Assembly: GCA_009773355.1 (NCBI GenBank)
Contig: WRPG01000049.1
Span: 1-54,735 of the forward strand
Source of the DNA: Limisphaerales bacterium
GTDB taxonomy: Bacteria; Verrucomicrobiota; Verrucomicrobiia; Limisphaerales; SXTU01
Direction of reading: 5' to 3'
DNA: 54,735 bases
Every line of letters begins with the position of its first letter. Positions within the stretch are counted from its first letter, which is position 1. Shown piece after piece: positions 10,081 through 42,195 of this stretch. Position numbers and translations under genes: made by a program. Under the pieces are notes generated by a model. That model was given only the letters and a program-made list of their open reading frames with translations. It did not search any database and was not told the origin of the DNA.

Positions 10081-10150
10081 GTAGCAGCCGACGTGAGGAG
10101 GCTCACTCCAATACTCGTGGCGGTTAGAGCCTCCTCACGTCGGCGGCTAC
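10081..10150. repeat. REP-like inverted pair, GTAG family, copy A
   Basis: The left unit, 10081-10104, reads GTAGCAGCCGACGTGAGGAG then GCTC. The right unit, 10124-10150, is the inverted form with the same GTAG foot. Within each unit GCC and GGC pair around the loop GACGTGAGGA. Other copies are at 31229, 40115, 40843 and 42102. Confidence 0.85.
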
Positions 10151-10160
10151 GAGGGGCGTT

Positions 10161-10239
10161 GGTAGGGCGGGGCCGTCCCCAGCGCGCCGCTGTTGCATCC
10201 GGCCACCCAACCGGCGCGCTGAGGATAGCGCGCCTTACC
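10161..10239. repeat. Inverted repeat with GGTA foot and GCGCGCC stems
   Basis: Arms at 10161-10189 and 10212-10239 share GGTA at the outer ends and CAGCGCGCCG at the inner ends. The right arm contains GGCGCGCT and its complement around ATCCTC, a good 8-bp hairpin; the left arm is more diverged. It is followed near 10256-10288 by a short run of CATTCCGCGTTC-type repeats that reaches the next start codon. Confidence 0.65.
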
Positions 10240-10289
10240 ACACTCGCCGCCGCCCATTCCGCATTCCGCGTTCCGCATTCCGCGTTCCC

Positions 10290-11282
10290 ATGACCTTCCC
10301 GCACAGCGCCTATCTGCTCGCGTTCCTCGGCGGCGCGCTCGCGACTGCCGCGTCGCTGCCGCTCTGGCGCGCGTGGTGCGTGCGGACGAATCTGGTGGAC
10401 GACCCCGGCCACCGAAAAATCCACGACTCACCCATCCCACTCGCGGGCGGGCTGGCGGTGCTCGCGGGCTTGCTCGTGCCGTTGCTGGCCGGGGCGGTCG
10501 CGTTGCAACTCAACCTGCTGCCCGCCGGTGCGGTGGAGAAAATCAGCTACGGCTTCGAGCGGCGCGGGCTGCAACTCGCGGCCATCCTCGTCGGCGCGCT
10601 GGGCATGGTGCTGCTCGGCTGGCTGGACGACAAACACGAGCTGCGCGCCGGGCCGAAGTTCGCCGGGCAGCTCGGCATCGCGCTGCTCGTCGCGCTGGCG
10701 GGCGTGCGCATCAAGCTGTTTCCTGAAAGCCCGCTCTCGCCCGTGCTGAGTTGTGGCGTGACGGTGCTGTGGATTCTCACCGTCGTCAGCGCGGTCAACA
10801 TCATGGACAACATGAACGGCCTCTGCGCCGGCCTCGGCGCGATTGGCGCGGCGGCGTTCGGTGCGACGGCGGCGGGGCAGGGGCAATACCTCGTCGCCTC
10901 GCTGGCGCTGCTGGCGGTGGGCGCGCTGGCGGGCTTCCTGCCTTACAACTATCCGAAGGCCAGCGCGTTTCTCGGCGATTCCGGCAGCCATCTCACCGGC
11001 TTCCTGCTCGCGGTGCTGGCGATTCTCCCGCACTTCTACACAGCGGCAAACCCGCGCCCGCTCGCCGTGCTCGCGCCGCTCCTCGTGCTGGCGGTCCCCC
11101 TCGGCGACATGGTTTGCGTCATGTGGATCCGCTGGCGCGCGGGCAAGCCGGTGTGGGAGGGCGACACGAACCATCTCTCGCACCGCCTCGTGCGGCGCGG
11201 CTTGGGCAAGCCCCAGGCGGTGGCGATCATCTGGACGTTGCACGCGGGGGCGGGGGCGGCGGCGGTGTGGCTTGGTTCCTGA
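10290..11282 (+). CDS. WecA/MraY-family polyprenyl-phosphate sugar-1-phosphate transferase
   Basis: A 330-residue polytopic inner-membrane enzyme that moves a sugar 1-phosphate from a UDP-sugar to undecaprenyl phosphate, starting a lipid-linked glycan. Visible family motifs are PIPLAGGLAVL near the N-terminus, GWLDDKHEL with the Asp-Asp pair, VNIMDNMNGLCAGLG, FLGDSGSHLTGFLLA and the cytoplasmic NHLSHRLVRRG, equivalent to the HxxHR-type loop. About ten membrane segments separate them. The Asn-Gly variant of the NxxDxxDG motif (DNMNGL) is slightly unusual. The absence of murein genes and the presence of glycosyltransferases favour a WecA/TagO-like role over MraY. Confidence 0.85.
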   Translation: MTFPHSAYLLAFLGGALATAASLPLWRAWCVRTNLVDDPGHRKIHDSPIPLAGGLAVLAGLLVPLLAGAVALQLNLLPAGAVEKISYGFERRGLQLAAILVGALGMVLLGWLDDKHELRAGPKFAGQLGIALLVALAGVRIKLFPESPLSPVLSCGVTVLWILTVVSAVNIMDNMNGLCAGLGAIGAAAFGATAAGQGQYLVASLALLAVGALAGFLPYNYPKASAFLGDSGSHLTGFLLAVLAILPHFYTAANPRPLAVLAPLLVLAVPLGDMVCVMWIRWRAGKPVWEGDTNHLSHRLVRRGLGKPQAVAIIWTLHAGAGAAAVWLGS

Positions 11283-11659
11283 AGCGTGTTCAGTGCGGAC
11301 CACGGAACCCCGTTCCCTGAACGCGGTCGGCGGCGGGTGCGTTGTCTCCACCTGGCCCGGTGCAAAGGCTCTGTCTCAAACCCCCGCCCGGTGGAGAGGT
11401 TCTTTGCGCGGGCGATCCTTCCGCCGCTGATGGCGGCCGGTTGACACCGGATTACGAAGTTGGCCGAACGAAACGAGAGAAAACGGGAGGGAGAGAACAC
11501 TGGGCGGGCACGGCGCGGAACCATTCCCCCCACTTTCCCGGTGGCCGGCACGATTTGTTTCGGCAGCCTCCGTTGCTTGCGGCGATTCCATTTCGAAGTT
11601 CGGATTGCACACTGATTACTGATTACTTTCCCCCCGCCTCCCGGTAGTCTCCGCGCGTC
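11283..11659. other. 377-base intergenic region with no recognised gene
   Basis: No convincing coding frame or structured RNA is seen. The stretch includes a TTGACA at about 11430 and, just before the regulator gene, a TAGTCT at 11645-11650 that matches the -10-like boxes of other genes, 9 bases before the ATG at 11660. Near 11610-11627 ACTGATTACTGATTACTTT contains a short tandem GATTACT. Confidence 0.4.
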
Positions 11660-40773: not shown

Positions 40774-40842
40774 AACGAGGGTCTCACTACAGCATTTCCG
40801 ATTTCCCCATTCCGCGTTCTGCGTTCTGCGTTCGAAGTTTGA

Positions 40843-40870
40843 TCAGAGCCTCCTGACGTCGGCTGCTACC
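40843..40870. repeat. Single REP-like unit, GTAG family, copy D
   Basis: The inverted form of GTAGCAGCCGACGTCAGGAG with GGCTC continuation, ending in CTAC at 40867-40870. No left partner was found within about 100 bases; a CATTCCGCGTTCTGC-type repeat lies just upstream at about 40809-40834. This looks like a solo unit. Confidence 0.75.
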
Positions 40871-40932
40871 GGGAAAAGTCGAAAGGCGCGGCTTGTGCCG
40901 CGCCCTTCGGTGTCAGTTGCGTTGAGTCCCGC

Positions 40933-41964
40933 CTACGCGCCCATGCCGTCCTCGAAGGAGCCGGCAGCCGCAGGGAAGCACAGGTTGCTCTTCACGTAGC
41001 GGACGCCGTCGGCGGAGCAGTAGTCGAGATCCTTGTGCGCGCTCTCGGCCTCGACCACGAGCGGGGCGGACTTTGTGCCCATGGCCGCCATGTAGCGCTG
41101 CGGATAGCCGACGTGGATGAGCAGCTCGACGTAGCGGTGCATGTTCAGGTCGCCGCTGCCGAGGTCGGTGAACTGCATCGCGCGCTTGCCCCAGTCCGGC
41201 TGCATCGCACGGAGCGGGAAGCCGCCACGCACGACGAAGTTCTTCACATGCGCGGCGTAAATGCGGCTGCCGACCTTGAGGAAGCGGCTCTCCCACGTCT
41301 CGCCTTCCCAGCAGTGGGACGGGTCGGCGTTCACGCCGAGGGATTTGTCACCGTCGCAGATGTCCACGAGCATGTTGAAATCATCGGCGGTGCTGGCGGC
41401 GGTGCCAGGGTGGATTTCGTGGCAAAGTTTGATGCCCAGTTCGTTCGCGTGCTTGCGGAGCTTGGCAGTCTTCTTGACGAAGCGCTCCTTGCCCTCGGCG
41501 AGCAGATCGAAGCCGCCGCCGGCCCAGAAGCCCCACGGGTAGCCGGTCGCCAGCTCCCAGCCGAACGCCACGCCCCAGAACATCGGCATGATCTTCACGT
41601 TCAACTCGGCGCTGAGGTCCATCAGCTTGAGCAGGTAGTTCTCGTGCCACTTCTCGATTTTGTCGGCAGGCAGCTTCGCCACGTCGGGAGCGATGAAGGG
41701 ATTGCCGGACTTGGTGCCGGTCCAGGCGCTGGTGTGGACCCAGAACGGGCAATGGGCGGAAATGCCGTCAAGCGTCATGCCGCGCGACTCGAAGGTGTCG
41801 CGGATTTCCTTCGCGGACTTGAAGAGCTTGCCGCCATTGAGATGGTAGTTGCTCGGCTGGATGCCGGTGGCCCCGGCGGCCTTGGCGAAGTCGAGCACCT
41901 CGGCGAGGGACTTGCCGCCGTGCTGGGCGCATTCGAGGCTCGGATGGTAAATCGGTTGAGGCAT
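40933..41964 (-). CDS. Xylose-isomerase-like TIM-barrel sugar isomerase/epimerase
   Basis: A 343-residue protein of the AP-endonuclease-2/xylose-isomerase-like TIM barrel family. Metal-site regions include LCHEIHPGTAAST with Glu and His, and VNADPSHCWEGETWE with Asp and His, followed by VVEAESAHKDLDY. Members act as sugar isomerases, epimerases or endonucleases; here the fold without DNA-binding features suggests sugars. The start at 41964 gives MPQPIYHPSLECAQHGGKSL; the longer frame to 42033 is rejected as unlike the family. No signal peptide. Confidence 0.78.
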   Translation of the reverse strand: MPQPIYHPSLECAQHGGKSLAEVLDFAKAAGATGIQPSNYHLNGGKLFKSAKEIRDTFESRGMTLDGISAHCPFWVHTSAWTGTKSGNPFIAPDVAKLPADKIEKWHENYLLKLMDLSAELNVKIMPMFWGVAFGWELATGYPWGFWAGGGFDLLAEGKERFVKKTAKLRKHANELGIKLCHEIHPGTAASTADDFNMLVDICDGDKSLGVNADPSHCWEGETWESRFLKVGSRIYAAHVKNFVVRGGFPLRAMQPDWGKRAMQFTDLGSGDLNMHRYVELLIHVGYPQRYMAAMGTKSAPLVVEAESAHKDLDYCSADGVRYVKSNLCFPAAAGSFEDGMGA

Positions 41965-42101
41965 AATCGTTCTGTCTCGTAGTTGGTTGCGCTGTCGCGC
42001 GAAGAAATAACAAACGCATCGCACCGGACGCAACCGGAAACCCGCCGATGCGGAAGATTTGCGCCCTGAAACCGGTTTGCGCCGTCAGCCGGCATCCGCG
42101 C

Positions 42102-42195
42102 GTAGGAGACGACGTGAGGAGTCTCTAACTCATCGGGCATCGAGGCCAGCAACCTGCTGCCAGAGAAGCGAGAGACTCCTCACGTCGTCTCCTAC
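42102..42195. repeat. REP-like inverted pair, GTAG family, copy E
   Basis: The left unit, 42102-42129, reads GTAGGAGACGACGTGAGGAG then TCTCTAAC; the right unit, 42171-42195, is its inverse. It is the same subfamily as copy B (stem GAGAC/GTCTC). It lies in the divergent gap between the isomerase-like and tatD genes. Confidence 0.88.

Follow-up and report, generated by a model that had tools for sequence, protein, structure and literature searches.

Short palindromes with a GTAG foot, known as families of repetitive extragenic palindromic (REP) sequences, together with REPINs and REPtrons, are reportedly linked to the names of Nunvar (2010) and of Bertels and Rainey (2011). Nine units of this appearance lie in the DNA analyzed here, contig WRPG01000049.1, positions 1 to 54,735 (54,735 nucleotides; the window), of the draft genome of Limisphaerales bacterium GCA_009773355.1 (G000; other G numbers denote further genomes, L numbers fetched stretches or loci). 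They are very probably REP sequences, mostly arranged as head-to-head pairs (REPINs), of a verrucomicrobial family of REP-associated tyrosine transposases (RAYT; TnpAREP), one member of which, RAYT C, is encoded elsewhere in the same genome between units of the same kind.

GTAG REPs, REPINs, and REPtrons (PMC3733652) share with the present units the GTAG foot, the hairpin, the high copy number, and a RAYT gene flanked by REPs, as well as head-to-head dimers mostly 20-100 bp apart and subfamilies with alternative complementary stem bases; GTAG repeats were also reported in the verrucomicrobium O. terrae (PMC3733652). Unlike in those systems, stem type here tracks the RAYT lineage across an order. 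In GTAG-24 of P. aeruginosa, unpaired GA residues lie in a long stem, whereas here the unit is 24 nt long, has a GTNA loop, and contains the G.A in tandem. Among enzymes, E. coli TnpAREP (RAYT group 2, 4er8; PMC8266576), with its HUH (histidine-hydrophobic-histidine) motif and tyrosine, is the best match of RAYT C in sequence and fold, and the E. coli REP likewise carries two mismatches inside the stem. RAYT C differs in its length (197 aa), in the replacement of W by F in the WQ motif, and in its 24-nt REP; moreover, its family by itself holds both mismatched and fully paired REPs. RAYTs of group 3, or subclass 2.5, go with short, generally perfect palindromes (PMC6006769, PMC8266576); they resemble the present family in their short REPs and in a HUH motif of the DHxH kind (here DHIH or DHLH), but the REPs of the window are imperfect. 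The recognition of fully paired as opposed to mismatched REPs by RAYTs is described as unresolved (PMC8266576). The four core strings of the units had no match in the literature searched, outside of which most subscription papers lie.

The repeat unit and the RAYT gene beside it

A scan of the window with the pattern GTAGNAGNCGACGTNAGGAGNCT (at most three mismatches, 23-nt coordinates) gave nine units at 10081+, 10128-, 31229+, 31274-, 40115+, 40303-, 40847-, 42102+, and 42173-, against 0.01 expected from shuffles, which agrees with the four inverted pairs and one single unit described in the initial annotation. In 24-nt coordinates, the first pair is of the b type (AGCC/GGCT stem) and consists of 10081..10104 (+) and 10127..10150 (-, with a stem mismatch at 6/23), separated by a 22-nt linker. 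The second, of the a type (AGAC/GTCT), comprises 31229..31252 (+, loop GTAA), 4 nt past the stop codon of the open reading frame (ORF) 27463-31224, and 31273..31296 (-), with a 20-nt linker. The third is a b pair with a linker of 163 nt, of which 40115..40138 (+) lies 4 nt past the stop codon of ORF 38692-40110 and 40302..40325 (-) reads GTAGGTGCC. It is followed by the single b unit and by an a pair, 42102..42125 (+) and 42172..42195 (-), with a 46-nt linker. The placements of the pairs given in the initial annotation hold, but the single unit, put there at 40843, spans 40846..40869 (-), and the loop has to be corrected to GACGTNAGGA, with GTAA at 31238 and GTCA in the single unit. Both stem subfamilies are present as proposed, and positions 8 and 21 indeed change together, being paired in all nine units (five C-G, four A-T); the subfamilies additionally differ at position 5, which is G in AGAC and mostly C in AGCC. 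The TAG stop of the minus-strand ORF 31293-33245 is part of the GTAG foot (31293-31296) of unit 31273..31296. Rfam gave no match at gathering thresholds for the window, L036, and L037.

The family is dispersed and of high copy number, as expected of REPs: 286 copies (at most two mismatches) were found in the 6.16 Mb draft genome, and the reversed pattern gave none. In an IS200/IS605 insertion sequence a transposase gene and its subterminal hairpins move together; here units are scattered away from the gene. In the genus, all 11 genomes searched contain units (1 to 202 matches to a degenerate pattern, no mismatch allowed). Across the order, 73 of 320 genomes matched the RAYT family at E 1e-20, and at 52 of the 90 loci examined at least one unit of the window's kind lies within 350 bp of the RAYT-family gene (the search put no constraint on the stems; a small number of matches to short fragments, e.g., in G239, G085, G111, and G073, were set aside). 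These flanks supplied 120 distinct units, in which the stem covariation predicted from the window could be followed. Watson-Crick pairs were counted in 72 units at positions 5/24, 103 at 6/23, 114 at 7/22, 96 at 8/21, 116 at 9/20, and 112 at 12/17, against maxima of 67, 73, 91, 59, 118, and 84, respectively, in shuffles, which do not keep the relatedness among units or rows. Position 9/20 is nearly invariant and hence uninformative, while the other five covary; 6/23, 7/22, and 8/21 each show several types of pair. Over the six positions 613 of 720 cells are paired, and when the partner is slid by 1-3 positions at most 39% are. G.A at 10/19 and A.G at 11/18 are almost invariable, though the search was anchored on these positions. 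An unanchored scan (foot-N8-GTNA-N8, at least five of eight paired) gave 423 hits and 35 in the reversed control; near RAYTs it returned 204 tandem-G.A, 116 fully paired, and 15 other units, which indicates one 24-nt layout in two discrete states. Beyond the 52 loci with G.A-type units, further RAYT genes of the family are flanked by fully paired units. The covariation in the 120 units supports a hairpin that combines a tandem G.A mismatch with a GTNA loop.

The initial annotation reported that the window contains no RAYT gene, and there is no RAYT match on its contig at E up to 1. The annotation attributed the repeats to a RAYT of this genome and suggested looking for one flanked by the same units. 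Three RAYT-like genes were matched in the genome, one of them above a curated cut-off. RAYT C (197 aa, G000:C63:33367-33960, minus strand) is bracketed by AGAC-type units: an inverted AGAC pair lies 5 bp ahead of its ATG, and past its stop there is a single unit of the AGAC type (GTAGGTGAC..., one base off). Its DHIH and CFYIAENP align with the HUH motif and catalytic tyrosine of 4er8, and its predicted fold is of the Y1 kind. Profile comparison with the PDB ranks E. coli TnpAREP 4er8 first (E 3.5e-4). By fold, the best match is again 4er8 (Z 9.8, root-mean-square deviation 3.2, 133 residues), the next row being a Thg1-like protein (Z 7.5); the model used was that of the G007 ortholog (84% identical to RAYT C; mean predicted local distance difference test score 69.8). 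Members of the family (19) are 51-72% identical to the first sequence. In G007 the ortholog lies beside the same neighbor gene as in G000, so RAYT C was inherited in place there; an AGAC-type unit follows it, and the contig ends inside the unit before it.

In the reading proposed here, the 24-nt unit consists of the GTAG foot and a single-strand hairpin of five outer pairs (four in b), the tandem G.A/A.G, one C-G or G-C pair, and the GTNA loop. The cognate RAYT, an HUH single-strand nuclease with one catalytic tyrosine, would recognize foot, stem, and mismatch on one strand and cut beside the unit, after which the pair could move and be copied as one, and copies, once spread, would be inherited vertically. 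Enzymes of the TnpAREP kind cut their REP on one strand, at a CT or CA dinucleotide. RAYT C may drive the copies of the present genome; the assignment of copies to RAYTs, like the cutting and copying themselves, is inferred.

Several results weigh against the attribution of the repeats to RAYTs. Single units folded as DNA reach -2.1 and -2.7 kcal/mol (z -0.15 and -0.79), a weak stability no better than that of many shuffles, and a strong fold is limited to the pair. RAYT C falls short of two cut-offs, scoring 13.5 bits where Pfam Y1_Tnp requires 23 and 42 bits (E 8e-11) where the curated threshold of NCBIfam RAYT NF047646 is 80. Eight of the 11 genus genomes with units gave no RAYT-family gene at E 1e-20 (these are drafts, with loss or missing contigs as the possible reasons). 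No RAYT of the AGCC lineage is in the assembly, although b units look roughly as well preserved as a units. The shuffles' neglect of relatedness belongs here too. Judged by its sequence, RAYT C is a divergent relative that NF047646 does not file; the two family members scanned fall under both cut-offs (Pfam and NCBIfam), and genes of this kind may thus be left without a name.

Other genes of the genome were rejected as mobilizers. RAYT A (contig C27) reads on in frame from a 4-hydroxyproline epimerase and makes up the C-terminal portion of their joint ORF of 599 aa (L036 3953-5752). It lies between GGAG-footed palindromes, which come in two forms and belong to another repeat family; its insert (about 0.9 kb) is absent in all eight readable relatives. 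RAYT B, also on C27 (L037 5749-6537; G000:C27:209748-210536), has inverted pairs from a second GTAG family, GTAGCTCGACATTCCAATGTCGAG, on both sides; the genome contains 197 copies of that family (at most two mismatches). An IS200-like gene on C114 has no unit of the family in its 20 kb stretch. A further RAYT, in G008 (L047 1465-1971; 29% identical to RAYT C), is flanked by GTAGTCGCAACCTTCAGGTTGCGA-type palindromes with alternative stems.

Stem types and RAYT lineages

The anatomy of the repeats was followed in a non-random sample of 65 stretches (large contigs and places with known units, the window included), which cover 1.29 Mb of the 6.16 Mb, some 14 kb being included twice. A weight-matrix scan gave 77 units at a score of at least 14 and none in the reversed sequence; only two further units scored 8-14, so by this measure half-decayed copies are few. 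By stem, 38 units belong to the a type, 28 to b, 8 to c (mostly CGCC/GGCG), and 3 are mixed. Sixty-four units are paired within 400 bp, and all 32 pairs of neighbors are head-to-head with GTAG outside. The linkers measure 20-25 nt in 12 pairs, 28-29 in 2, 38-49 in 16, and more than 100 in 2; their sequences are mostly unlike one another, with a few related, and the lengths form two main groups (20-25 and 38-49 nt). In 28 of the 29 pairs free of mixed units both halves are of the same type (shuffle mean 13.1, maximum 24 in 100,000).

The two types could differ by a point change within one family, a reading that the RAYT tree does not favor. The tree comprises 81 rows and the set labeled by flanking units 70 rows, 20 of the 90 loci (fragments or loci where no unit was found) standing outside it; L108, with one G.A unit and one stray, was labeled by hand. 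AGCC-type units accompany all 11 RAYTs of one clade (Shimodaira-Hasegawa-like approximate likelihood ratio test, SH-aLRT, 98), and stems with G at position 5 (e.g., AGAC, AGTC, or AAAC) accompany all 27 labeled RAYTs of another (SH-aLRT 93; 97 for its 21-row core), to which RAYT C belongs. CGCC types occupy several deep places in the 81-row tree; in a second tree they form one 10-row group (support 89) that includes one paired-type row. The four REP classes require six changes over the 70 rows, while shuffled labels require 34.1 on average and at least 26 (helix columns left out), a contrast inflated by near relatives. A better control shows that class follows the RAYT and is independent of the host: among the 14 tabulated genomes in which the family has several members, 11 contain RAYTs that differ in class. 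In the genus, G001 carries a 69% relative of RAYT C among other neighbors, with AGCC pairs on both flanks. As read from these sequences, the AGAC, AGCC, and CGCC types are associated with separate RAYT lineages, and the AGCC lineage is present in a congener, not in this assembly.

It might still be that in this genome RAYT C alone mobilizes the a as well as the b units and that the stem differences are neutral within one population. RAYT C is the only member of its family in the assembly, one a/b hybrid pair exists, and b units show no more visible decay than a units (18 of 28 and 27 of 38, respectively, are identical to the commonest form of their type). We nevertheless regard this as unlikely, given that the clade of b-unit RAYTs is separate from the a-like clade across the order, that G231 and G081 each hold one RAYT of each kind (a and b), each beside its own units, and that pairs are almost always of a single type.

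Empty and filled sites

One unit pair of the genome lies in frame within a dadA-like ORF (L036 6195-6267, G000:C27; L238-L247), where one codon position is readable in nine genomes, G000 and eight congeners. The site is empty in G001, G002, G003, and G006, and is filled in five: by a b pair in G000 and G010, by a c pair in G005 and G008, and by a GGAG-type palindrome in G004 (one unit matched the pattern, and the other was recognized by eye). This codon position is a site of repeated insertion or replacement. The empty and filled states show insertion or deletion as a unit, not which enzyme acted. The window site at 31229 was rejected as a clean empty site: the upstream gene is conserved and no REP follows it in seven relatives, but the downstream region is not syntenic.

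A second site, 10086 of L036, is occupied by a b pair in G000, G008, G002, and G004, by a decayed pair in G006 (units keep 38 of 48 bases), and by other palindromes, recognized by eye, in G005 and G010. In G008, G002, and G004 the units keep 142 of 144 bases, whereas the linker, constant in length (46), keeps 109 of 138, and the flanks 81-86%. Such conservation would suit selected RNA or DNA elements that are not mobile, such as terminators, mRNA stabilizers, or protein-binding sites, as would the two window pairs that begin 4 nt past a stop codon. However, units and flanks diverged to a similar degree at two other sites, so special conservation of the hairpin is not general; a single codon position may be empty or filled by b-type, c-type, or GGAG-type repeats depending on the genome; and a RAYT gene is bracketed by units. 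We therefore hold it improbable that host selection in place of mobility accounts for the repeats, and a host use would be compatible with RAYT-driven spread. That the units are remnant ends of an ordinary insertion sequence or of a miniature inverted-repeat transposable element unrelated to RAYTs, which inverted units and a short linker may generally bring to mind, is hardly credible in view of the outside GTAG foot, the covariation within units, and the TnpAREP-like gene beside units at more than half of the loci.

A helix position associated with mismatched or paired units

The occurrence in one family of both REP kinds and several stem types provides a natural set of matched enzyme/hairpin pairs for studying DNA recognition by RAYTs. 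Among the 70 labeled RAYTs, the column that best separates G.A from fully paired units is position 100, with T in 45 of 46 G.A and 0 of 24 paired rows; the second-best is 103, with E in 38 of 46 and 0 of 24. In a profile alignment counted by hand, position 100 aligns with residue 82 of 4er8, and F111/Q112 with W94/Q95. K82 of E. coli TnpAREP was reported to contact the bulged REP base (PMC8266576), so one helix position of the family matches a described bulge contact. When 27 of 43 further RAYTs were added (the other 16, with unclear units, were dropped beforehand), T100 was present in 94% of the G.A rows and in 2% of the paired rows among 97, and position 100 was still first of the tested columns. 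Five of the 43 carry T100 with E103; four were scored G.A by script (L185, L189, and L190 of the a lineage, and the distant L281), and for the fifth, L178, whose G.A units have a loop of three bases, the flanking sequence was scored by eye.

The two residues are not a strict rule: the combination is absent in 8 of the 46 labeled G.A rows, G.A units occur without it in L183 (A,E), L196 (T,gap), and L280 (Q,I), and L193 has T100 yet paired units. In a sign test only three supported independent contrasts were available, with which significance is unreachable (T100 changed in the same way in 2.2 and in the other way in 0.0 on average); the link is thus a lead. It is possible, and we propose it tentatively, that the DNA-binding helix of this one family contains a specificity switch, that Thr100 with Glu103 reads the tandem G.A mismatch, that other residues go with paired stems, that further positions separate AGAC, AGCC, and CGCC, and that REP type would be largely predictable from the protein. 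Since both REP kinds occur in one family and one helix position stands out, recognition is testable by swapping one or two residues. L280 and L281, which come from the phylum set, outside the order, also have G.A units.

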